Source: Sphaerolaimus hirsutus
Lineage: Eukaryota; Nematoda; Chromadorea; Monhysterida; Sphaerolaimidae
DNA length: 64,000 nt
Direction: 5' to 3'
Assembly (NCBI GenBank): GCA_964036195.1
Contig: OZ038452.1
Location: 29,895,785-29,959,784, forward strand
Shown here: piece after piece, positions 5,876 to 40,500 of the stretch
How the letters are laid out: every line of letters starts with the position of its first letter
Numbering within the stretch: position 1 is the first letter of the stretch
Translations under genes and position numbers: made by a program
The notes under the pieces: generated by a model
The model's input: only the letters and a program-made list of their open reading frames with translations
The model's database searches: none
What the model was told of the DNA's origin: nothing

Positions 5876-5883
5876 GTCCATTG

Positions 5884-6457
5884 GGGGCAGTCCCACATCC
5901 TGTATAGTTTAAAATGTCATGCAATATTTTTCATTTAAATAAGAAGTATATTACCTACCGTATTTCCTCGAAATACCCCCCTCAAAATGGCCACTATGAA
6001 TTTATTAGCCCCCCCCCCCAAATTGAGTGTACAGAGAACATACATGACAAAACTGCGGTTTTTGATTCGGGCATCGCAAAACACACGTTAAAAACTATGA
6101 ATTGTTACGTTAGAACAGTGTTACATGCTTATATAAGTCAATACTCTTATATATAGCGGTTATTGTTGCATTTTTCTACGTCTGCGTACGTTTCAGACGA
6201 CAATTTAGATCTGGAATTTCAAAAAATTTCTGGCGAAATAATAAGCCCCCCCCCCCTCGTTTAACCCCCCTCAAAATTCTCACTCTGAAACAATTACCCC
6301 CCGGGGGTATTTCGAGGAAACTTTTAACATTTTGCAACAAATCATGTCATGTAACTTTAAACATTTTGCATGACAATCGACAATTCGTACGAAATTTTCC
6401 ATGACAATTCGCACTTCACTTGACACTTTACAGAGTGCGGGACTCCCCCAGATGGCA
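5884..6457. mobile_element. GGGGCAGTCCC MITE with nested C-rich MITE
   Basis: Left end GGGGGCAGTCCCACATCCTG, right end GCGGGACTCCCCCAG. The interior has the family's AAAATGTCATGC / TGACAATT motif. A C-rich palindromic element (5957-6321, starting TACCGTATTTCC) is inserted inside. Confidence 0.75.
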
Positions 6458-7172
6458 AATGGATACTTTTTCAAGTGATAAGCTGAATTAAGAAAGTGAC
6501 AACTATTTAGATGTACGTGAAAATACTCTTCCCTGAGGCACTCCCCTTAGCAATGTAAAAAATCATATAAAGTTTCATGCGATGTGAAACAGTCATGTGA
6601 AAAAAAAAAATTTATTCGGCACATGTTATTTTTCAGGATCTAGGAATGCCACCTGGTTTACTAAAAGGTTAAAATGTCTAAATCCATACTATACTCGGCG
6701 TACGTGATACTTTGCCCTCGCACTGATTTATGTCTCGTGTTGGAAGCGTGCCAATGATTAATCAATCATGCGATTTCCGTGAAATATGAAAAAAATTCAT
6801 CGATGTGAATATGTTAATGAATAACATTATAACAACAATCAATTGTGTCATCTTTTTATGAAACTCGGACGCGTTAACGATCGTTGGCATACTTCCAGCG
6901 GGAACCACGCGTGCAGGGTGAAAGTAACCGGAGTATACCTAGTTTGATACACTATGAATCGCAAGCATAGTGACCATTTGCATGCAAGATACATTTCAAG
7001 TAAATAATTGAATCTTCGAGTGGGTAAATACCATCAATATTAAAAGTGGGTGAATTAATTTACAAGTGCTTATATATTCACGCAAAGTGCACGCGCACTA
7101 CGACATACGATGGAAAACAGCCGTATTATTTATCCTTCGAGAAAAGTTAACCAAATTGTTCACCTGCACCAT
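6458..7172. other. Intergenic, no gene seen
   Basis: AT-rich sequence with no coding signature on either strand and no clear element boundaries. Confidence 0.4.
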
Positions 7173-7549
7173 GGGGCAGTCCCGGACCCTGTAAAATGTC
7201 ATATGAAGTGTCAAGTCAATTATAATGTCAAACGACTGGTAACAATATAAAATTTTCCAGATAAGTTTACATGACTCATGATTAGTGATGGAAAAGCGCC
7301 ATGGCGCTGGCGCCTGCCGCTAGCGCCAAAGGAAAAAGCGCCATGGCGCTTCTGGCGCTTGGCACTGGGGTTTGGAAAAGCGCCATGGCGCTATTTTTGC
7401 CTGGTGCCAGGAATAAAATTCCTGGCGCTAGCGCCAAAGCAAAAAGCGCCAGGGCGCTTGGCGCCAAACTCCTGGCGCATTTTCCATCACAACTGTTGAC
7501 ACTTCGAACTGAAACTTGACATTTTACACGGGCCTGGGAGTAGCCCCTA
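7173..7549. mobile_element. GGGGCAGTCCC MITE with nested GCGCCATGG element
   Basis: Left end GGGGCAGTCCCGGACCCTG, right end GGGCCTGGGAGTAGCCCC. Nested at about 7283-7490 is an element bounded by TAGTGATGGAAAAGCGCC and TTTTCCATCAC, made of GCGCCATGGCGC palindromes. The alanine/leucine-rich ORFs on both strands here are translations of these repeats. Confidence 0.75.
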
Positions 7550-16500: not shown

Positions 16501-19500
16501 TCTGATAGCATTATAAGTGCTGATTTCTGCCAAAAAAATCCAATTTTATGTTGACTCATGATTTATATAGCCGTTTTTGAATGTTCCTTGACTGCAAGTG
16601 ATGTAAGTCATGGAATAGTGCTTAAATTTGGCTATAAAAGAAGGCTAATACATGACAGTGATGTTTCACACTGTAGAAAAGTGGAAGCACGTTGGCTGGA
16701 TATTTTTTACTACACTGACATATCTCCTCAACTTATTATTACTAGAAGCAATACCACTAAAATGCTACAAAACCAATGAAAACAACCACCAACGGCAATT
16801 TGCATGTGAAATTATGCGCTTGCGCGCAAAAAAATTGCAAAATACCTAGTGCATGAGTACAAAAATTTTTGCCAGCGCTTTTTTTTAAAAAAAAGCGCTG
16901 GGACCCTTGCGCTTTTTTATAAAAAAAGCGGCGTTTTTTAAAAAAAAAGCGCTTAAAAAAAAGCGCTTGCCATCCCTACCTGCAGCCAACAATATTCTTA
17001 TGTTTTTGCATAAAGGTAGCATGTTACACATACAAAAAAGCGGTACGAAAAAAGTGACTTCACGCTTGCACTTACACATGGAATACTGGGTACATATTCA
17101 TAAATGTGTTCAAATGCTGAACACAAATACATTTTTGTTTGTTTGTGGAGCCTTGCGTTTACAAAAATTTTTGGTGATGAATTCCGACGACGCCACTTAC
17201 AACAACTGTGAGTAGCACACGTTTTGAAACTGGCAGGGCGAGTGCAAGATCTGGTGCCAATCCCAGACTAGGGTTGGAAAAAAAACGTTTTTTTTTAACT
17301 CGATGTTTTTTTTATAAAAAAAACGTTTTTTTTTAAAAAAAAACGTTTTTTTTTAATAAAAAACGTTTTTTTTTAAAAGCTCCCAGATATGACCTTGTGT
17401 CAACATATATAGGTATATCAGACAGTGGCAATACTCTGTGATGTTATATATGACCATATAATGTCTGTGGAGCCATGGGATAGCATTATAAGTGGTGATT
17501 TGTGTCAAAAATATCCATTTTTCGTCGACATATCGTTCGTATATCGCCTTATAGGCGAATGTTCGTGACTTCAGGTAAAGTTTGGCACGGAATAGTGATC
17601 AAACAAGGTTATAAAACAAGGTTGTTACTTTGGGAGTGAAGTTACACACTGTGGAGGTACATGGAAGCACATTACCTCAATATTATATACTACAGCAACA
17701 TATGACGGCTTATTAACCCATGGTAGCACATAGAAATGGATACTTTGATACTAAAAATGCCACAAAACCAATTAAAACAACCGCCAATGTCAATTTGTGT
17801 GTGAAATTGCGCGCTTGCGCGCAAAATTTTTGCTAAATACTTAGTGCTTAGTACTAAAAATTTCGGTCGATGTTTTTTTTTAAAAAAAAACATTTGGGAC
17901 GTCATGTTTTTTTTTAAAAAAAAACGTTTTTTTTTAATAAAAAACGTTTAAAAAAAAACATCGGCCAACCCTATCCCAGACTCTGTAATATGCCCTGTAA
18001 AATTTAAAATTTCATGCAAATGTCAAAACTCATGTAAAATGCCCAGCAAAATGCAAAGATTTGCCACCTTCCAGGGCATTTTGCATGACTTTAGACACTT
18101 TGAATGCCATTTGACATTTTACAAAGCATTTTACAGGATCTGGGACTCCCCCAGAATCACCAGTGTAGTTGGATTTGGCCACTCACAACAGAAAGGGGTA
18201 CAGATGGAGCGATTGACCCATCTAAAGGTGAAAATAATGGTATTTTCCAAAGCACAATGGCATATACTGTGTGTGTGTAAAATTTTTACGTTTACGTTTT
18301 TTTTACGTATTCCTTGGTATTTTAAAAATACCTTACGTTTTAGTATTTATACTTTTGATTTTGAAAAGGTATTTACGTTTACATTTACGTTTTCCAAAAA
18401 TACCAGTATTTGCACAACTCTGATGTAGGGTTCAAACGGGATTGACCTTTCGGGATCGGGATCGGGATTGGTTTTTTGAGATTTCGGGATCGGGATCGGG
18501 ATTGGCCGGGATTGGGGTCACGGGATCGGGATCGGCATTTTTTCGGGATCGGTATTGAGGTCTTGGGATAGAGATTTTGGCCAATGTTTTGGCATCCACA
18601 GTTGTTCATAAAGGTCCAAAAACACTGTTGGATGCCAGAAACGCGGCATAAAATGAACGCTGGGGGTTTGCGTTCACATTTTTGCATGCAAAAACGTCGT
18701 TTTTCACTTTTGATAATTTCCACTAATTTTTCCGGAATCGGGATCCCGGACTTTGGAGTTTCTCGGGATCGGGATTTGAAAAGTTTCGGGATCGGGACTG
18801 CTAAATCCCGTCACGGGATCTGGAATCGGGATCGGGATCCCGTTTGAACCCTAGGTGTATGTAGCGCCAATGTGGCAGGTGCATATTGAACAATTTCAAG
18901 TGCTATTGCTAATGTCCTAATTGTCAATCAAAATTTGAGTTTACATGGAAACCAGTTGACACCCAGTGTACAGCGCTTTTTAAGCGAACCCAAAGTGCCT
19001 ACACAAACATTTGATATATGTCGATTGATGTCACTTGTCAGTTGACATTTAAATCGAAAGTGTGTCAACAAATGACATTTAAAAATATGTAATAAAATTA
19101 TTCATGTGACACACACCGGCACACTTTTGATTAAAAACTGAATCAGTTGACAACCATTAATCAGTCAATTAATATTTGCATACAGAAACCAGCGTCCAAC
19201 CTTCGAGATCGATCGGTTTTTCCGTGCATTTTTCGGCCCCATTCCGATTTTGACACGCCTGGCACATATATCTGCCAGCGTCCTTTTTATTCACTTTTCG
19301 CACAGTCAGAAATTGAACGAATTTGGACTTGTCGGGAATTTGGGGCGGAATTGTGCGCGTCTCGTATTTTCCGCCGACCACCAAGCGCAGCTGCGAGGGG
19401 AAAATTTAGGTATGTACATAAATATTTATAATTTATTACTTTACTCCTGCTCCAGAAATACACTGTCTAGAGTACCCAATGTGCTAGTAACAAAACTTAA

Positions 19501-22500: not shown

Positions 22501-25500
22501 GTAATGTACTTCCAGTGTATGCGGTGCTTTGGGTGCATCTGGTTCTGAGTTTTAAAGAACAATGTGATAAAGTGTAGTCAGGAGTAGTGATGGAAAAAGC
22601 GCCAAAAGTATCGTGGCGCTTTTCCGTGATGGCGCCAAGCGCCAATTTTAAAACAATTTATACTCAAAGCATCAATATGTTGTACATTTTTCTTCATTTT
22701 AAACCCGATAATCAATGATTATCGTACATTTTTGCACGTTTTGTTTTAGCATTTATATTTATTTATGAATTTATGCTGCTCCCAACCAGGGTTTGGCCAT
22801 TTTTTTTGCCTTTGGACCCCCCAACAAAAACTTCGGCACCCCTAAAACAGAACAAAACAAAACATAACCCACTAGGTCGCTCTTCAATAATCACGCTGAC
22901 ATTATTACTGGGCATGCTCATTCCATGTTCGTTTGACGCCAAAATATTGACGTCATATTGTTTCTGCTTTTCGAGACCGACCAGCACGTAGCGTTTTTCA
23001 TCCGTAGTTATCTGGGGTAGGGGAAAATTGAGAGACCTTGTGTCGGTGGTCATCTCTAAATAGATGAGCAGCGGGTAGAAATAGATGAGCAGAGGGTAGA
23101 TATAGATGAGCAGCGGGTAGAAATAGATGAGCAGCGGGTCTAGATGGACAATGGGGTTTAGACGACACTACTAGACTTACGCCAGAGAAAGTGTCTGTTT
23201 GGGTTTGGACGATATGACTTTTTGATATCGATATGGACGCTCGATATCGATATTGAATAGGAAGAAATGGTCGATATCCGATATTTGATATTCGATATTC
23301 GATATGAAAAAATAGGGCCCTGTGGCATTACGCATGTAAACCCATCACGTGTAGACCCGGCACGCATTAAATTATATCCGACATGGTGAAAATAGACAAC
23401 AAAACACATGACCTAGTGATTTTGAAGGTGAAAATCTAAAAAAAAGTATGAAAATTGCCGATTTTTTGTGAAAAGTAAGGTAAAATTGCTCAAAAGCGCT
23501 CCAGATAGCTAGATAGTTAAGCAATTTGCGGCGGGGGTGTTCAGGGGAAAGTTGCAACAAAAAATTGCCTCTGGGATAGATAGATAGCTGAAACGTTTGG
23601 GGTAGGTTTAGCCGCCCCCTTTCTTACCCCTGCTTGTGGCACTTCCGTAGAGCGATTTTGTGGGCAGTTCGGAAATTTTTTTCGCACTAGCGCCCATTTC
23701 GGCACCGTGCAGTATATTTTTGTCATACCTGTGGTTGATGACCAAAAAAGCACTCAAAATGTGCTCCCGTCGCTGTATATGTATGTAAAATAAATACATG
23801 TACAGGGTACAGCACTATTTTGCGCCATTGCCAACGCCAATGCCGCCATGGCATCGCGTCTACGAATGGCGCTGGCGCCAAGGCACCATTCCTTTACCAC
23901 AGGGGTCAAATTTTAGGGGGGGGGGGACCGCCCTCCCACGTTCGCCGAGCTCCGTATACAATCCACCCCCGCTCAAAAATCCTGGCTACGTCCCTGTAGA
24001 TGCGTGATGGGTTTACATGCGTAATAGGCTTGACTCCTCATTTTTCACTTGTCCACTTGCAAAAGTGGCACCTACAGTGATAATTTTCCACAAATAAAAA
24101 GCCCAAATTTTTACGTGGTGTTCAAATGCAATTGTGCAAGTGGCTAGAGAAAGAAATTAAAAATAGTTCACCGACCGTACACCTTACAGTGAAATCAAAA
24201 TTACGCAGTTTTTAACGTGACTTTATTCATCAAAATACGGTAATATTCTCTGTAAAGCACGCGGTCCGATCAGGGGGCAGTCCCAAGCCCTGTAAAGTGT
24301 AAAGTAAAGTGTCAAATGTAAAGTCAAATGCAAAGTCAAGTGTCAATCAAAACAAAAAAGAAAAGATTCTATTACTGAACTTTGCATGACAATTGACACT
24401 TTACTTTGCATTTGACTTTACATTTGACACTTTACTTTACACTTTACAGGGCTTGGGACTGCCCCAAGTGTACAAATAACAAAAAACTCACATTTTGATC
24501 CAATACGCCATTTTTGAACACACGCACAATGTAATGCTTCACCTGCGCGTAGAATCAAATGGAGACGCAAAACAAGGAAACCATTATTGACAACCGAAAA
24601 TGTCAAAAAAAATTTTAACATAGAATTTCCGTTTTATTTTTTTTGTTTTTAAAGATTATTTTAGGATATTTTTTTAGATGTAAAAACTCAGCACTCACAA
24701 CCCATCCGAAAAAATAGATACTAAAAATAAAAAACACGTTCACAACCCCACTTAAACCCCCCAAATAAAATTAGGATACGCACCTCTGTATCCTGTTTTG
24801 GAGCCGCCCACGCAATGGTCATATCCTGATCAGCCAGCGAAAGTATATGCAAACTTCTGGGGGGTCCGGGTAAGTTCAATCTACCCTCCAAACCGCACTT
24901 TAGGAGGGAATCCATATATTCCACGCAAGTGAGATGCTCCCTATCTACCATATTATAGGGGCCGTAACAAAATGCCATGCAGTGTTCGGGGATGCCCGCT
25001 TCAACGCAGCAAGGTCTGTGGTTTTGCGTTATATTGTTAGGGTGAAAATGTCAACTGTCAAATGTCAACTGTGGATAAGTCAATTGGCAAATGTGCGAAA
25101 CTGGCTGAAAGTGTCCAAATTTTTAAGTGTTTTTCCACGATGAAGTTTTTACTTGTCCCTAATAGTTTTCGAATTTTAATACTAGAATAGTTATATATTT
25201 TTGAGTTCTTTCCAGGAGTAATTTCCATAATTTCTATAATTTTACGAGGGGGGGGTGGAATTTTACGTTTATGATTCAGGTGGGATATAATAAATCCGTG
25301 TGAAAAGTAAATATTCAGTCAACAAAACAATCAAAAACTAAAAAAAAATATCAAATATTCTCCACCTGTGATCCCTGCCATCAATTGCGCAGTTAATCCA
25401 ATTAGAAACGTGTCCCAAACATTTGGGGCCCCTTTTAATGAGAATTTCCGCCGTAATATTATAAGCGCACAGACTTTTGCAGTGGTCAGAAATTTCGTGA

Positions 25501-28500
25501 TCATCACAGCATTTGTGCAAATCTGCCGCCGCCGCGTTCGCAGTTTCTGCGAGAAGAAGACGATTTTTTATCATGAGCCAGATTCACAAACTAGTTGACA
25601 AGGACACCAAATGTCAACTGGTTCCCGTCCCAATTCAAAGCTCGCTCACGAGCCGACGAACGACGATCAAATGCAAAAGTGTTTAATCGTGTTGCTGTTC
25701 TTGAATGAATGAAGCTGTACTGTTGGAAATTGGAATACATCTTGATGTACATATGTGCAACGATGGAAAAAACACAGAAATTGAACACAGAAACTCATTG
25801 AGTTTCTGTGTTTTTGTTTTACACAGAAACATAGAAACTCACAAATTTTGAAAAACTCAAAACTCAAATGAGTTTTTTCTTGGAGAACACAGAAACACAG
25901 AAAAGTTTTTTGAGTTTTTTTTATAGCGAAGTGGTTGAACACATTTTCAAAACGCACATGAATTCAGTTAAACTAAACAAGATAAGATATGCATGTATAG
26001 CATGTAAATATGTATATAATGTATTCAAATTTTATGATGGAACAAAAAATAATTTAAGGATGGCATGCACATCTCCTGGTGGACATGTTAAAATATAGTT
26101 GTAGTTCAAATCAATTCTGTAGTCTTCCATACAGTGCACATCCATTGAAGAATTTTGGAGTACTGCGTAAATTGTCCTTTGTGAGCATTTTGTTGATGCT
26201 GGTGTTGCGATGTGGGTGGATGTCCTCATTGTGGACATTTTTATGGACTTTTTTGACACTTGAATGAATACACATATGTTATGTGGGGCTAAAACATGTG
26301 CAAAACCAATATTTTATAAGAAAACCGCTGTTTCCACATCAAAATGCTGTAAATCAGATTTTTTTGGGGAAAACTCGATTTTTTTTGGACAAAAACTCGA
26401 GTTTTTTAGAAAAAAACTCAAAAAAACTGAGTTTTAACAAAAAACACAGAAATAAAAACAGAGTTACTCAAGTTTTTTTCGATAAAAAAACTCAAAACAC
26501 AGGTATTCATTTTTGAAAAACTCAAAACACAGAAAGTGTTTTTTTTTGGAGAACTTACCCATCGTTGCATATGTGCACTTTAAGTAAAACGGTCTACAAA
26601 AATGCGTAGTGTAACTCGTCAGGGGTGCGAGCGCAAAGTTTTGAATTGGGATGGGAACCAGTTGACATTTCATGTCTTTGTCAGTCAGTCGGTGTAGGGC
26701 GGCCATGAAAATGGCATGCGTCAAATACCGTTGGCACACTTCCAGCGTGAAATACGCGGGTCAGGCCTCCTACGCACAAATGCCTGGTACGCACAAACGC
26801 CCGGTACGCACAAAATTGTGCCCGCCACGCACATCTGCCCGGTAACTTACATGGCTGATGATCTTTGCGTACCGGACAGATGGTCACTAATGTTATTGCA
26901 CAGCTTTTTTCACTTCACTGATATCTGAAAATCACTTGATAAAGTGTCAAGTGAAAAAAAACGGTCAAAAATAGCCATTATCCACTGTTTTTTCACTCGA
27001 CACTTTTTCAAGTGATGTTCAAATATGTGTGAAGTGACAAAAAGTTAACTAATGTCATTGCGCAACTTTTTTTCACTTCACTCACAAGTGTGATGTGAAA
27101 AACACAGTCAAAATGTAATGTAATGTCATTTCGTACCGGGCAGATGTGCGTGGCGGGCACAATTTTGTGCGTACCGGGCATTTGTGCGTACCAGGCATTT
27201 GTGCGTACAAGTGCACCGCCAAATACGCTCCAAGGTGTCAAGTAACTGCACCATACCGCACCCAATTAACCCCCAAACCAACCACTACTACAACAAAACT
27301 GTTCATCGCACACATATCCAATGGGGCACTCTTTTTTGCTATTGCCCGACACGCATTGTCGGGTCTGCCCTGGGGGCAGTCCCAGACCCTGCAAAATGCC
27401 CTGTAAAATGTCAAGCGTCATGCAAAGTCCCTAAACTCACGGAAAATGTCCTGGAAAAATGTCACATGACTGGTAGAAAAATCAAACGTGACATTTTGCA
27501 GGGCATTTTACATGACCTTAGACACTTTACATGACACTTGACACTTTACATGGCATTTTACAGGGTCTGGGAGTGGCACCGGAGCTCAACAAAAGGGGTT
27601 GCCCGCCGGAATTTACGCAATATGGCCCCATGGCGGGCGGGCCCAAATGGCTGTGCGTTAGAAATTCGACGACTTCTGAACGGAGAGATGAACCGTCGGT
27701 TGCGTGAGCCACGACCGATACCTGGGGGGGGGTTATTTGATGATGGGGGGTATTTAGAATGTGAGGCGCGGGTTAAGTGAGTGAAATTGTGCACTATGGT
27801 AGAGGTGGCAGTTGTTTTTTCAACTGATTTTTTTTAAATCTGATTTTTAAAATAAAAATCACAGGGTGGAAACTAATATTTTCAAACAATCAAAATGTTT
27901 TTTTTAAATTGGTAGACATGCACTAGGTGATTTGAATTCTTTGCACACAAGCGCACCATTTCACATACACATTAACATTGGTGATTGTTTTCATTGGTTT
28001 TGAGGCCCTTTTATTATTTTAGCACTCTATACACCCATTCTGGACGATCTTGAAAAAATGATTTCAATGTTTAAAAAAATCTTGAAATCTTGAAATTAAT
28101 TTTTGGTCAAATTGATTTTTTATCGTTTGAAAAAAATTAATTGTTTCCTTAACAACCGCACTGTGGATTAATTGGTTTAATCCCGATTCAGAGTCCCCAA
28201 TCCCAATACCAAAAATGTTCAAATACCAATCACGATTAGGGTTGGCCGATGTTTTTTTTAAAACGTTTTTTATTTAAAAAAACGTTGTTTTTTTTAAAAA
28301 ACATGACGTCCGAAATGTTTTTTTTTTAAAAAAAACATCGACCGAAATTTTTAGTACTAAGCACTAGGTATTTTGCAAAATTTTTGCGCGCAAGCGCGCA
28401 ATTTCACACACAAATTGACATTTGTGGTTGTTTTCATTGGTTTTGTGGCATTTTTAGTATCAAAGTATCCATTTCTATGTGCTACCATGGGTTAATAAGC

Positions 28501-31500
28501 CGTCATATGTTGCTGTAGTATATAATATTGAGGTAATGTGCTTCCATGTACCTCCACAGTGTGTAACTTCACTCCCAAAGTAACAACCTCCTTTTATAAC
28601 CTTGTTTGATCACCATTCCATGCCGAACTTTACCTGAAGTCACGAACATTCGACTATAAGGCGATATACGTACGATATGTCGACGAAAAATGGATATTTT
28701 TGACACAAATCACCACTTATAATGCTATCCCATGGCTCCACAGACATTATATGGTCATATATAACATCACAGAGTATTGCCACTGTCTGATATACCTATA
28801 TATGTTGACACAAGGTCATATCTGGGAGCTTTTAAAAAAAAAACGTTTTTTTTATAAAAAAACATCGAGTTAAAAAAAAAACGTTTTTTTTCCAACCCTA
28901 ATCACGATCCCGCAAAAATTGCATAATTTGCCAAATGACATTCTTCCACTCACCAAATACAAAGTGCTAGGATCGAGTCCATACAAAACGTGTCCCGATT
29001 TGACCCCTTCCACTTTGTCCCATGCCAGTTCGCCCGCCGCGTCGACCCGATACCAAATCGTGTAATTTTGGACTTTGTCGGCATTTTTTTCCGGCGGATC
29101 GAATTTGATTTTCGCATCCGTGCTGGTTATCTGATCGACGGTCAGGTGCCGCGGCGGGGAAGGGTGACTTTCTGTGTTTCGCGTGAGCAATTTGAGCAGT
29201 ATACGAGAGCGATTGAAATTACGAATGGATAGATATGTCCCAGAAAGTTATGTCCCATTTTGTGGACCTATTTCGGACTTGGTACGAGTAAGGTAATAAC
29301 CTTGCGTGCTACGGTAGCTATTGCAACGAGAGACGACGAAAATGGTACATAACTTTCTGTGACATATCTATCCATTTGTATGTTCATGTGTTCTCGAATA
29401 CTGCTAATTTGCATTTTTGCATCCAAAAATTGTTATTGGTGGAATGCGGGATATTTTTTAGACATTCACCTATTGAATATTCGGATATTTCAAATCAATT
29501 TTTTTATTTCCAAAAACCACACCGTTCTAAATTAATTTTTTTTTTACATTTGGAAATCACTTTCTACAAAAACACACAAAAATACACAAGAACGTACGAT
29601 AGCCCAAATGCAGGCAGGAATAGGATGGTGTTCATGTCCAGCGTCAAGCACAACACGCTGGTCCAAGTCCAGTGCCTTGCTCTCCCCCTTGCAAAGTCTG
29701 CGTTATGGGGGGGCTATTTGAGGGGGGTTGGGAAAAATTAGTCAAAAACTACGTTTAAAGATGATCACATTTTTGTTTAAAAAATTTCAGATAGACTTGA
29801 TGTTTCTATAATCTCTTTATATTTTTCCAAAGTTCGATATCTAAATATATTTATTTGATTCGGTTCAAACGGGATAGACCCGCGATCGTTTTGAGAGATA
29901 GTCTGAGATAATATTTTATCATATTTGACAAAATCACCCATTTTCAATGTTAGCTGTGGTGCATACTTGCAATACTTACTACCGCTACTTGTACTTGCAG
30001 AGAGGTACAGGGTGGTTACAATTAGGGTTGGCCGATGTTTTTTTAAAAAAAACATGACGTCCGAAATGTTTGTTTTTTTTAAAACATCGACGGAAATTTT
30101 TAGTACTAAGCACTAGGTATTTTGCAAAATTTTTGCGCGCAAGCGCGCAATTTCACACACAAATTGACATTGGTGGTTGTTTTCCATTGGTTTTGTGGCA
30201 TTTTTAGTATCAAAGTATCCATTTATATATGCTNNNNNNNNNNNNNNNNNNNNNNNNNNNNNNNNNNNNNNNNNNNNNNNNNNNNNNNNNNNNNNNNNNN
30301 NNNNNNNNNNNNNNNNNNNNNNNNNNNNNNNNNNNNNNNNNNNNNNNNNNNNNNNNNNNNNNNNNNNNNNNNNNNNNNNNNNNNNNNNNNNNNNNNNNNN
30401 NNNNNNNNNNNNNNNNNNNNNNNNNNNNNNNNNGGGAATCCATATATTCCACGCAAGTGAGATGCTCCCTATCTACCATATTATAGGGGCCGTAACAAAA
30501 TGCCATGCAGTGTTCTGGGATGCCCGCTTCAACGCAGCAAGGTCTGCGGTTTTGGGTTATATTGTTAGGGTGAAAATGTCAACTGTCAAATGTCAACTGT
30601 GGAATAAGTCAATTGGCAAATGTGCGAAACTGGCTGAAAGTGTCCAAATTTTTGAGTGTTTTTCAACGGAAGTTTTTACTTGTCCCTAATAGTTTTCAAA
30701 TTTTAATAGTAGAATAGTTATATATTTCTGAGTTCTTTCCAGGAGTAATTTCCATAAGTTCTATAATTTTACGAGGGGGGTGAAATTTTACGTTTATGAT
30801 TCACGTGGGATATGGTAAATCCGTGTGAAAAGTAAATATTCAATCAACCAAACAATCAAAAATTAAAAAAGAAATATCAAAAATTCTCCACCTGTGATCC
30901 CTGCCATCAATTGCACAGTTAATCCAATTAGAAACGTGTCCCAAACATTTGGGGCCCCTTTTTATAAGAATTTCCGCCGTAATATTATAAGCGCACAGAC
31001 TTTTGCAGTGGTCAGAAATTTCGTGATCATCACAGCATTTGTGCAAATCTGCCGCCGCCGCGTTCGCAGACTCTGCGAGAAAAAGACGATTTTTTATCAT
31101 GAGCCAGATTCACAAACTAGTTGACAGGGAAACCAAATGTCAACTGGTTCCCGTCCCAATTCAAAGCTTGCACACGAGCCGACGAACGACGATCAAATGC
31201 AAAAGTGTTTAATCGTGTTGCTGTTCTAATGAAGCTGTACTGTTGGATCAAATTTTATGTATGTGCACTAGGCGGAGTAAAAGTGTGTAAATACAATAAT
31301 GCGTAGTGTGACTCGTCAGGGGTGGGAGCGTAAAGGTTTGAATTGGGATGGGAACCAGTTGACATTTCATCTCCTTGTCAGTCAGTCTGTGTAGGGCCAT
31401 GAAAATGGCGCCCCTTAAATACCGTTGGCACACTTCCAGCGTGAAATACGCTGCAAGGTGTCAAGTAAATGCAATATACCGCACCCAATTAACCCCCAAA

Positions 31501-34500
31501 CCAACCACTACTACAACAAAACTGTTCATCGCACACATATCCAATGGGGCACTCTTTTTTGCTATTGCCCGACACGCATTGTCGGGTCTGCCCTGGGGGC
31601 AGTCCCACACCCTGCAAAATGCCCTGTAAAATGTCAAGCGTCATGCAAACTCCCTAAACTCACGGAAAATGTCCTGGAAAATGTCACATGACTGGTATAA
31701 AAATCAAACGTGACATTTTCAAGGGCATTTTACATGACACTTGACACTTTACATGACACTTGACACTTTACATGGCATTTTACAGGGTCTGGGAGTGGCA
31801 CCGGAGCTCAACAAAAGGGGTTGCCCGCCGGAATTTACGCAATACGGCCCCATGGCGGGCGGGCCCAAATGACTGTGCGTTAGAAATTCGACGGCTTCTG
31901 AACGGAGAGATGACCCGTCGGTTGCGTGAGCCACGACAGATACCTGGGGGGGGGTTATTTGATGATGGGGGTATTTAGAATGTAAGGCGCGGTATAAGTG
32001 AGTGAAATTGTGCCCTATGGATTAAGGATGGCACTTTATTTTTTCAACTGATTTTTAAAAATCTGATTAAAAAATCACAGGGTGGAAACTAATATTTTCA
32101 AACAATCAAAATGTTTAAAAAAATCAATTTTTGGTCAAATTGATTTTTTATCGTTTGAAAAAATTAATTGTTTCCTTTCCAACCGCACTGTGGATTGATC
32201 AGGCCTCAGGGGTACGGTTTAATCCCGATTCAGAGTCCCCAATCCCGATACCAAAAATGTTCAAATACCAATCACGATCCCGCAAAAATAGCATAATTTG
32301 CCAAATGACATTTTTCCACTCACCAAATACAAAGTGCTCGGATCCAGTCCATACAAAACGTGTCCCGATTTGACCCCTTCCACTTTGTCCCATGCCAGTT
32401 CGCCCGCCGCGTCGACCCGATACCAAATCGTGTAATTTTGGACTTTATCCGCATTTTTTTCCGGCGGGTCGAATTTGATTTTCGCATCCGTGCTGGTTAT
32501 TTGATCGACGGTCAGGTGCCGCGGCGGGGAAGGGTGACTTTCTGCGTTTTGCAAGGTTGTATTTGCTTATGTAATTTGAGCAGTATTTATACAAGAGCGA
32601 GTAACTTACAAGTGGATAGATGTGTTCCAGAAAGTTATGTCCCGCATTGAGTACATATTTCTGACGTGGTACGACTGTGCTGATAACCTTGTGGGTTACG
32701 GTAGTTATTGAATATTATATTGAAGATATTGACCGCAGAAATGGGACATAAGTTTTATGGGACATATCTATCCATCCATATGTTCAAGTGCTCTCGTATA
32801 CTGTTAATTTGCATTTTTGCATGCTAAAATTGTTATTGGTTATTGTTACCGTTTTTTTTAACATTTGGAAATCACTTTCTGAAAATCTCAAAAATTGAGA
32901 GAAAAAAACGTACGATAGCCCAAATGCAGGCAGGAATAGATGGTGTTCATGTCCAGCGTCAAGCACAACACGCTGTCCAGGTCCAGTGCCTTGCTCTCCC
33001 CCTTGCAAAGTCTGCGTTATGGGGGGCTATTTGAAAGGGGTTGGGAAAAATTAGTTCATTTTCAAAAACTACGTTTATAGATGATCATTTTGTTTTAATT
33101 TTTCAGATAGACTTGATGTTTCTATAATCTCTTTATTTTTCCAAAGTTCGATATCTAAATATATTTATTTGATTTGGGTTCAAACCGGATAGACCCGCGA
33201 TCGGTTTTGAGAGATAGTCTGAGATAATATTGTATAATATTTGACAAAATCACCCATTTTTCAATGTTAGCTGTTTTTCAATAAAAGCTTCTTTTTTGGA
33301 TTGATATTTTCCATGACATTCGACACTTGATTTACATGGTGCGGGACTACCCCAACCTCCAAAACCCCCACCCACTTCAAACAATCTCCCGTGACCCCCT
33401 TCAATTTGCAACAATTCGTGTGGTCCCTTCCATCAGCCAAGCAAGGCGCCACGCTGCTATATTCCGTTCTGCATTGCATGGTGACTTGTAGGGCGCCAAA
33501 GGCGCTAGGGGGCTTGGATAAATCGCAGATTTGGTCCAGACAATCATCGTCCACATTATTTTGACGGCAGCATTCTGAGGGGGGGGGTTAATAATTTTTT
33601 TAGGGTGTTGGGGAATTTATATTTGCGAGTGGGGATTTTTTTAGGAAGGAGTTTTTATTTGAGGCAGAAATGGTTATTGCGCGCGTGAATGAAACTTGAC
33701 CATCTGAACTTTTCATGAAAAATCAGCACTCAAACGACGAAGCGGCGGAAAATGTAAAAGTAGAAAATACCCCACGTAAATAAAATAAAAATTACCCTTG
33801 ACATCATTCACTTTTCCAGGGTCCAATTTTACATCCTGTGTTGCGACCAAAACTCGAACCGATGGCAAACTGTCCCCATAATCGTTCATAGCCGTAACGT
33901 AAACGTAATATTGCGTTGCGGGACGTAATTCCGTTACGTTGTAACATTGTTCCTTTTTGGACATTTCGGCTTTGATTGGAATCTGTGAAATTTGGAAGAG
34001 TACTTTTTAATTTGGAAGAGTACAAACGATTTTAGTTTAAATGTAATTTTTCCATGTTGCTATTCTGAACGTAAAGATATTTAACGAAAATATTTGGCTA
34101 AAGTTCCATTTTCTGCATGGGGAAACTCAAAAATTCTTCTCTAACGATCTCCTTGGCAACGTGAATAAATTTCAAATTTCAATTGACAGATGATCAAATG
34201 AAAACTTCTTTAGAAGTTGCACCTTTACAACATGATAAACAATTTTATTTATAACATTCAACCAAAAACGATCAAAAATGATCTCAGAAAAGCATCATTA
34301 AAATAAATTTTAAAAAAAACACAATTTAACCAATAACCATCAAAAATTGACTCCGCCCACTCAACCAACCTTTTTAAACGCAAACTCCCTAACTTCCGTG
34401 GAATTGGTCGCGTGATTGTGGGTAACGAAAACCCACGCTTGCCGCTTTCTGCGAACCTTTATCGTCGGCAATTGGCTACTGTCCAAAACATTTGGGCTGA

Positions 34501-37500: not shown

Positions 37501-40500
37501 GGGTTTGCGTTCACATTTTTGCATGCAAAAACGTCGTTTTTTCACTTTTGATAATTTCCACTCATTTTTCCGGGATCCCGATCCCGGAAAAATTAGTGGA
37601 AATTATAAAACGTAAAAAAAGACATTTTTGTATGCAAAAATGTGAACGCAAACCCCCAGCGTCCATTTTATGCCACTTTTCTGGCATCCAACAGTGTTTT
37701 GAGACCTTTATAAACAACTGTGAATGCCAGAACATTGGCCAAAATCTCTATCCCAAGACCCCAATCCCGATCCCGAAAAAATGCCAATCCCGATCCCGAT
37801 CCCGTGACCCCGATCCCGGCCAATCCCGATCCCGAAATCTCATCAAACCGATCCCGATCCTGAAAAGTCAATCCCGTTTGAACCCTAGTTTTAGGTGAAG
37901 GTTTTGGCTTCAGTTTCAGTTGTACTTCAAGCTTAAAGCCCAGCAGTGATTCAACAAAACCAATCAATCCCTTTCAAAAACTTTCATGTGCCCAAACGAC
38001 ACTGGGCCAATGTGCCTGCGCACACTAGTTTTCACACGAAATTTCGAAAACTCACAATTCAGCTTAGAACGCATTTTAGTTTTGTACAATCAGGTGGCTG
38101 TCAACTACAGTTGACGGAGATGACAAAATAACTCCTTGTGGACAACTCAAACACGTTTAAAGCTCATTTATGAGTTTTCGAAATTTCGTGTGAGAACTAG
38201 TGTGCGCAGGGCCAATGAGCACATGACGAACCGGGAGCACACATTTGTTCGCAGCCATGCTTGATGTCTTGTTTCAAACAGCAATCCCTGTAATCGAAGG
38301 TCAGATTTTGTCGCAAAGCGTGCGCCAGTCCCGAACTGTCGGCGCCTGAGAAAAATTGTGGCAAATTTTGAGCTATTTCGAAAGTGGATTTTGCTGACAA
38401 ATCTGACAAAAATTACCACTCCCCTTTGATTGACTCCCCACTCAAAAACGTCTGATGAAAAAATCCGTGCGGTTTTGCTGGAGGATTTACAGTGTTATCA
38501 GTTTTGTATGTGTTTTTGTACCAAGTTAAAGCGGTAGTTGACAGATTAAAGTAGTTGACAGACTCCTGACTCTGGTCAACTAAAATGTATTAACAGTATA
38601 GATTTATCAGATTCGGGAATTTCGGCTGTCAACTAGTTTGCGTAGCTGAAAAAAACCTGTCAACTATTCTTACCCAAAACTTCCACCTCAAACTCCAAAA
38701 ATTGCTGCATTTCTTTCAAATTTTCATCCAATAATTCGCAAGTGTATTCGGCCGCGTCCGAAGATCGAACATTCTTTATAATCAGGGTCATTTCTTCTTC
38801 CTCTGAGAATTGGGATAAGATTTGGCTACATTTATTCAATTAAAAAAATATAGTAATATATTCAATACCGTATTTCCTCGAAATACCCCCCCTCGAAAGA
38901 CCCCCCCCCCCTCTCGAGACCACTATGAAACAATCACCCCCCCCCACAAATTGAGTGTAAAGAGAACGTACATGCCAAATACTGCAGTTTGTGTTCTGCG
39001 TAGTGCAGAACACACGTTAAAACAATGTCGGAATCACGTTAGAACAGTGTACATACCATCTACGTACTACTATTAGTCTACAGGAGTCTTTACATGTCAG
39101 TTATTGATGCATTTTTCTACCCCAGCGCACATCACAAACAACGATTTTGTCCTAGGATTTCAAAAAAGTTCTTGTGAAATAATTACCCCTCCCCTCGAAA
39201 TACCCCCCCCCCCCCCTCTCGGGAGCACTATGAAACAATCACCCCCCAGGGGGTATTTCGACGAAATACGGTAGTCTATTGGCGAGCTGTTGTCGCTGCA
39301 CACACTAATTGACTAATGTAACTTAAGAATTTTAGTAAACTCGTAAATCAGTGTTGAATGCACTTGAGTTTACTGGAATGAGTTATTTTTACTCTCCATC
39401 AACTGTAGTTGATAAAAACCTTAATCATTTTAAAATGCCATTCAAGTAAATAAAAAATTACGAGTTTACCAAATTTTTAGCTTGCTGGCAGTAAACTAGT
39501 GTGTGCACTGGGACGCGCTATCATATACAATGAATTTTACCGTATTTTGATGAATAAAGTTACGTGAAAAATTGTACACCAAATTCACCCATAGTGAGAG
39601 AACTAGTGGTGGGAACAGTTTGATTTTTAAGATAGAATAGGGTAACATTTTGTAAATAAATTGTATTGTTGGTGTTTTTACGCGCAATGCAAAAAAACGA
39701 AAGTTGAAAACTTTGCCATTTTCAACTGATACTAAACTGATAGTTTCAATTTTAAAAATTTTTCATCTTTTATTTCACATCCAGTAGATAAATATGACAT
39801 ACTCGCAATTCACCAAAACAGATTTTTTAAGACAATTAAAAATAAAGTTTGACATACCGCAGTCGCAGCAGGAATTCATGAGGCATTTTTTGCCTTTGGG
39901 ACAAGTCGATGACTCGTCGAAACATCGGCCAGAACAGTCTGAAAATGAATCTTTTTTTAAAAGGAAAAAAAATAATAATGGGGAATTTCAGTTACTTTGT
40001 TTTATAATAAAAAAATATCTATTTTCAAGTACAAAAAAATTAATTATAAAAGATTAGCAAAATTGAAAATCTCATTGAAAAATTCATTATCCGCAAAATC
40101 CACCAAAAGTACTTCAAAATAGGGATGGAAAAAAAGCGCTTTTTTTTAACGACCCCGCTTTTTTTTTAAAAAAAAGCACTTTTTTTAAAAAAAAACGCGC
40201 TTTTTTCGCTTTTTTTCAAAAAATGTCAAGAAGGTACCTAAAAGTTCCCAAATAGGGTTCTGAGTCAATATATACAGTTATATCAAACAAGTGGTAGTAC
40301 TTGTGATGATATATAGCCATAGAATGGATGTGTAATCATGAGATAGCATTATAAGTCCTAATTTCTGCCACAAAAATCCAATTTTATGTTGACTCGTTAT
40401 GTATATCGCTGTTTGTGTATGTTTCATTACTTCTAGTGAAGTTAGGCATGGAATAGCGCTTAAATAACGTTGTAAGAGAAGGCTAATGCATGACAGTGAT

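Follow-up and report, generated by a model that had tools for sequence, protein, structure and literature searches.

The origin of new introns is a question of long standing, and few animal systems in which transposons make them are documented: within animals and land plants, PMC9860276 (Gozashti et al. 2022) reports introners, described as intron-generating non-autonomous DNA transposons, from two groups only, and both are animal groups. The locus described here raises the question in a precise and testable form, since the window (the whole 64-kb stretch of DNA that was analysed) contains an element inside a coding exon, together with the sites at which it is probably spliced, a duplication by which it can be dated and scattered relatives. 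An earlier note had described a lustrin-like repeat interrupted at 27370..27579 by a MITE running from GTGCCA to CCCCCAG and apparently acting as an intron; the coordinates proved exact. Is this element removed as an intron, where would it be cut, and did its insertion create the intron?

On the minus strand, positions 27579..27370 read GTGCCACTCCC...GGGACTGCCCCCAG (210 bp), with the start GTGCCACTCCCAGACCCTGTAAAATGCC and the end GGCATTTTGCAGGGTCTGGGACTGCCCCCAG on the coding strand. This element (A) follows ...GGQPLLLSS(G) in the lustrin-like domain, and its flanks, when joined, read ...GGQPLLLSSG/QTRQCVSGNSKKECPIGYVCDEQFCC in frame. Read through without splicing, the frame hits a stop inside the element (ORF 27527-27772). 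A second element (B) is inserted at the identical codon of a neighbouring unit, and A and B are one insertion duplicated in tandem, not two independent cases. Positions are collected in Table 1; in the splice sites below, a slash marks the cut.

Table 1. Positions within the window of the elements, their dispersed relatives and the surrounding exons.
Feature	Position	Strand	Remarks
Element A, inferred intron	27370..27579	-	210 bp, GTGCCA...CCCCCAG, near-complete inverted repeat
Element B, paralogous copy of the same insertion	31593..31801	-	209 bp
Tandem unit A (FN3-lustrin-DB)	24906..29800	-	aligns to unit B, 30434-33116
Exon before element A	27580..27721	-	end of FN3 domain and first half of lustrin-like domain
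Exon after element A	27283..27369	-	second half of lustrin-like domain (QTRQC...QFCCSS)
Exon before element B	31802..31943	-	
Exon after element B	31506..31592	-	
FN3 exon, unit A	28954..29171	-	
FN3 exon, unit B	32324..32541	-	
DB-module N-terminal exon, unit A	25366..25546	-	
DB-module N-terminal exon, unit B	30892..31072	-	
Copy C	17254..18154	+	antisense in inferred intron of the same gene; nested insert 17270-17972
Copy D	24268..24465	-	ends GGGGCAG...CTGCCCC; in intron, starting ~26 nt past the donor of an FN3 exon
Copy E	7173..7541	-	nested unrelated stretch; edge GT and AG both absent
Copy F	5882..6449	-	interrupted; edge GT and AG both absent
Copy H	6539..6655	-	weak relative, nhmmer E 0.02-0.03 (under the inclusion threshold); edges GT...AG
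Fragment G	33300..33355	-	single end; in intron, ~22 nt past the donor of a DB exon

The element is hosted by a large minus-strand gene, probably a roundworm gene, which combines FN3, lustrin-like and DB modules. This combination, chiefly the DB module, is typical of nematodes. Recognisable exons extend from an FN3-like one at ~37 kb (19.5 bits, below cut-off) to an FN3 domain at 13.0 kb (27 bits), with a DB module between them at 33.3-33.6 kb (52.5 bits in Pfam when unjoined). The FN3 domain at 13.0 kb is one of the minus-strand ORFs that flank copy C, together with an Ig I-set match at 19.2-19.4 kb (19 bits, below cut-off) and a DB match at 15.3 kb (26.3 bits). A possible signal-peptide ORF (47.5-47.9 kb) and a transmembrane-like ORF (12.2-12.7 kb) were read by eye, and neither has an informative Pfam match. 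We infer that all these minus-strand exons form a single gene. When the exon before element A was joined to the upstream FN3 exon, the FN3 score rose from 32.3 to 43.7 bits, and joining across inferred introns raised the upstream DB module from 52.5 to 61.4 bits; the joined DB module of the unit (PF01682) scores 64.4 bits, above the gathering cut-off of 25 bits. Since joining raises both the FN3 and the DB scores, the gene model is on firmer ground outside the lustrin-like domain.

The two FN3-lustrin-DB units align in six collinear blocks with 85-95% identity. Over their FN3, lustrin and DB exons (729 nt) there are 14 synonymous and 2 non-synonymous differences (dS 0.094, dN 0.0035, dN/dS 0.037; one-sided binomial p 4e-8). 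Elements A and B differ at 5 of 208 aligned bases and in 3 gap columns, and three nearby intron stretches differ between the units at 13/279, 4/59 and 8/166 positions. Because dN/dS is 0.04 between duplicates that both carry the element, the gene stayed functional with the element inside it, and selection on the protein continued with the element in place. Because both units carry it, the insertion predates the tandem duplication, or was copied by conversion.

These figures bear directly on the possibility that the element is not spliced at all. The stop within it would then end the frame, the protein would be truncated and the exons downstream would be decaying. This does not fit the purifying selection on the exons at both sides of the element and in both units. 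By contrast, a redundant copy of a DB-module exon (CKGES...) at 29600-29720 in unit A, apparently a decaying leftover of the tandem duplication, carries two single-base indels relative to its twin in unit B. An unspliced element is thus hardly credible. Judging from the DNA sequence, element A is very likely spliced out as an intron, and here the proposal of the earlier note is supported.

Where would splicing cut? We listed the GT-AG pairs whose donor lies 75 nt or more into the exon, whose intron measures at least 40 nt and whose frame stays open into ...CPIGYVCDEQFCCSS; 24 such frame-keeping pairs were found in copy A and 29 in copy B. All 24 products of copy A, trimmed to the MGPYC start, were scored against Pfam. 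The element's own edges are the best-fitting splice pair of those tested: their 46-aa product matches the lustrin family (PF14625) with 24.0 bits (E 5e-5) over positions 5-46 of 46, so that the claim that splicing exactly at these edges restores the frame stands, with the best lustrin match of the 24 pairs. The Pfam gathering cut-off is 27 bits; the 76-aa product of the same pair scores 22 bits, and no PF14625 hit is listed up to E 1 for the joined product of 254 aa. Because the match is below the cut-off and absent from that listing, we call the domain lustrin-like. The second-best pair combines an inner donor, CCT/GTAAAA, with the edge acceptor (17.8 bits), and the third an upstream donor, TGC/GTAAAT, with the inner acceptor TTTTACAG (16.2 bits). 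None of the remaining 21 products matches PF14625 up to E 10 (HMMER filters can hide weak matches); three of them match EGF_Tme5 below cut-off (14.5, 16.1 and 9.5 bits).

These two runner-up pairs, the third with its acceptor read as CATTTTACAG/GGC, stand for another explanation, in which the element is intronic but is cut at other sites, so that some of it is exonic or some of the apparent exon is intronic. By consensus their sites look the stronger ones, and the frame is kept in both copies. At +4 to +6 the edge donor GTGCCA is weak, and 4 of the 5 other donors that we located are closer to the usual AGT at these positions, the fifth (GTGGAG) being no better than GTGCCA; the string FN3N was not found and was left out of this comparison. 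Stronger-looking sites near element A (TGC/GTAAAT and CATTTTACAG/G) form a frame-keeping alternative, and an inner GTAA...CAG pair recurs, by eye, in 5 of 6 independent copies. Against these sites speaks the fall of the lustrin match from 24.0 bits to 16.2 or 17.8 bits. With TGC/GTAAAT, moreover, the piece added to the exon differs between A and B by an L to V change, and the 37 nt of exon that would be discarded are identical in A and B. We judge cutting at other sites to be quite improbable.

The acceptor at the element's edge, CCCCCAG/G, is in keeping with the acceptor style of this gene: the exon directly upstream has the acceptor CCCCCCCCCAG/G, and a C stands at -3 in all 12 acceptor strings located, the element's own excluded. 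Runs of nine C lie at or just before the CAG of 3' splice sites at 27717-27734, 31939-31956 and 33565-33589 on the minus strand. Acceptors of nematodes are T-rich, and such runs are thus unusual against them.

The element belongs to a family of repeats. In blastn, A matches its own reverse complement over 199 bp (78%, E 3e-35), as well as copies at 17.97-18.15 kb (E 2e-28) and 24.3-24.5 kb (E 1e-10). A 21-base pattern of its terminal inverted repeat (TIR), searched with at most 3 mismatches, occurs 7 times in the window, 4 of the 7 being the ends of A and B, and 0 times in 100 shuffles; this is a repeat family beyond chance. Searching with a profile built from copies A to D brought in further members at 7.2-7.5, 5.9-6.45 and 33.3 kb, as well as a weak match at 6.54-6.66 kb. 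The element is short (210 bp), consists of inverted repeats over nearly its full length, has no coding capacity and has several dispersed copies in the window (C, D, E, F, the fragment G and the weak H), all of which is typical of MITE or foldback elements. No target-site duplication was found: in all seven copies compared (A, B, C, D, E, F and H, with offsets of up to 3 bases) the longest flank shared by the two ends is 0-3 bp, which is within the range of random flanks. Because of this we call the element MITE-like and assign it to no superfamily. A scan of the window against Rfam gave no family at gathering score. The search of IMG/VR with a 19-base TIR pattern returned one contig, whose surroundings, by eye, hold no such inverted repeat, and we take this hit as chance.

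With 10-11 nt of flanking sequence included, the RNA of element A is predicted to fold into one long hairpin of -137.4 kcal/mol, a stability that none of 200 shuffles reaches (z -16.3). Folded alone, intron A reaches -126.3 kcal/mol and leaves 4 bases at its start and 7 at its end unpaired, and intron B takes a similar fold at -113.2 kcal/mol. In the fold with flanks the GT is unpaired and the AG of the 3' splice site lies within a small hairpin, CUGCCC-CCA-GGGCAG, that uses exon bases; this AG is unpaired only if the intron is folded without its flanks.

Are the splice signals native to the family, as had been proposed? GT...AG edges are present in A/B, C and H and absent in D, E and F, that is, present in 3 of the 6 independent copies with two ends (by eye). 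Because D, E and F lack them, edge signals are not fixed in the family, and the proposal is only partly supported. Part of the AG is probably supplied by the flanking base, the element ending in ...CCCCCA and the flank beginning with G. An inner pair within the inverted repeats, with GTAA near the left end and CAG near the right, is commoner (5 of 6 copies, the exception being H); used at both ends, this inner pair falls outside the frame-keeping pairs of copy A.

Copy C has the edges GTGCCAATCCC...CTCCCCCAG on the plus strand and is split by a nested insert of ~700 bp, lying between two 10-bp repeats ATCCCAGACT. The copy, placed at 17254-18165 by the earlier note, does have the GT...AG edges reported there; it had been called intergenic, whereas the exons around it suggest that it lies antisense within an intron of the one minus-strand gene. 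We considered copy C as a second element-made intron, as Cys-containing ORFs at 18.2 and 17.2 kb first resembled the halves of a DB module. Adding them to the DB module did not raise its score (26.8 bits without; 24.4, 24.0 and 19.1 with), neither ORF matches Pfam alone, and by eye their frames cannot be joined at the element edges. For these reasons copy C was left as an ordinary intronic copy, and the window would hold one independent element-made intron. A scan of a collection of genome contigs (genome_contigs) with the spliced lustrin-like domain gave 135 stretches that fit a pattern, none of which encodes a relative.

Did the element make its intron, or did it enter one? Probably, in our view, a foldback element was inserted in the lustrin-like coding exon and became in place an intron spliced at its edges, before the tandem duplication. 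A non-autonomous foldback (MITE-like) element would have landed in sense orientation between ...GAGCTCC and GGGCAG.... Its left end GGTGCC would itself give the 5' splice site G/GTGCCA, and its right end CCCCCA, with the next G, the 3' splice site CCCCCAG/GG. Removal of the 210 nt would restore the exon with its frame unchanged, and no target-site duplication would be needed. Pairing of the arms along nearly the whole element in the RNA may draw together the two weakly defined splice sites. The FN3-lustrin-DB unit would have been duplicated only after the insertion, both units inheriting the element.

Alternatively, the element inserted itself into an intron that was already present, and what remained of that older intron then disappeared, or its splice sites shifted to the element's edges. 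The family is indeed common in introns: C, D and G all sit in inferred introns of this gene, two of them close behind a donor (D ~26 nt and G ~22 nt past it). Intron A, in turn, consists of the element throughout: nothing foreign to the element precedes it on the 5' side, and no more than 2-3 nt follow it on the 3' side, whereas D and G retain at least 22 nt of intron on the donor side. Also relevant is a Cys-rich exon at 39851-39938 on the minus strand (DCSGRCFDESSTCPKGKKCLMNSCCDC), which has a CPxGxxCxxxxCC pattern like that of the lustrin exon and begins at a comparable phase and position (phase 1, four codons ahead of a Cys). If this exon were a lustrin repeat, the intron position could predate the element. 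Pfam gives it no match above cut-off and does not call it lustrin, and its likeness to the lustrin exon is reached by 1770 of 5000 shuffles in which the Cys are fixed (282 of 5000 free shuffles). We rejected it as an element-free lustrin paralogue, since Pfam does not recognise it and the likeness is no better than in Cys-fixed shuffles, and retain it as a caveat. That an older intron was taken over appears unlikely, and an origin of the intron by insertion into the exon is the reading that we favour.

Introns made by transposons are known as a kind, and element A would add one from a nematode-like animal. As with the introners of PMC9860276, it would fill its intron to both splice boundaries, has terminal inverted repeats, would leave the exon length unchanged after splicing and would have splice sites in part carried and in part recruited at the insertion site; mixed recruitment and unchanged mRNA length are described there as usual for introners, and the legend of Fig. 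2 includes an Acanthoeca family with inverted repeats and without target-site duplication. By the criteria of that source, similarity between introns has to extend to within ~5 bases on the exon side or 10 on the intron side of both splice boundaries, and a family has to comprise at least 4 introns in non-paralogous genes. Element A is similar to copy C out to both of its inferred splice boundaries, with C an ordinary intronic copy and A and B paralogues; unlike such families, the element accounts for one independent intron in this window. In Amoebophrya, according to PMC7789003, introner elements carry inverted repeats and have predicted hairpins that join the exon borders. Element A likewise has inverted repeats at the intron ends and a predicted hairpin; it differs in pairing along nearly its whole length, and in having GT-AG borders and no direct repeat, where the elements of Amoebophrya, defined among non-canonical introns, bear direct repeats at the borders.

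The word stem 'nematod' is absent from the main text of PMC9860276, and in the titles and abstract openings from searches of open-licence PMC papers we recognised no introner of a nematode (PMC12235515, on introners, nematodes and MITEs, stands outside this negative). It is rather doubtful whether, in a nematode-like animal, these elements form a true introner family, with ends that can carry GT and a near-complete AG, an inner GTAA...CAG pair, and exon insertions that would be neutralised at once by hairpin splicing and would spread genome-wide as new introns. Should other copies lie flush between coding exons across the genome, they would add a new animal lineage and an introner type with a whole-element hairpin. 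Should there be no other flush copies, the locus would still show cleanly how splicing can render a transposon insertion harmless.

Splicing of exonic DNA transposons from RNA, by which a gene tolerates the insertion, is familiar from Tc1 in C. elegans and Ds in maize, and there it often uses cryptic sites near the element and leaves extra bases. Compared with Tc1 and Ds, the removal of element A would be exact, and the element has been retained through a duplication.

Three further observations concern repeats in and around the gene. That D and G begin so shortly after a donor could be a hint that exon borders are preferred. The stretch 26757-27221, which adjoins the lustrin exon, is present in unit A only, contains inverted GTACGCACAAATGCC-type repeats and is apparently another foldback insert. 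The insert nested in copy C has the ends AGGGTTGG...CCAACCCT, and similar sequence was seen by eye elsewhere in the window, for example at ~28.24-28.9 kb and 30.02-30.23 kb.
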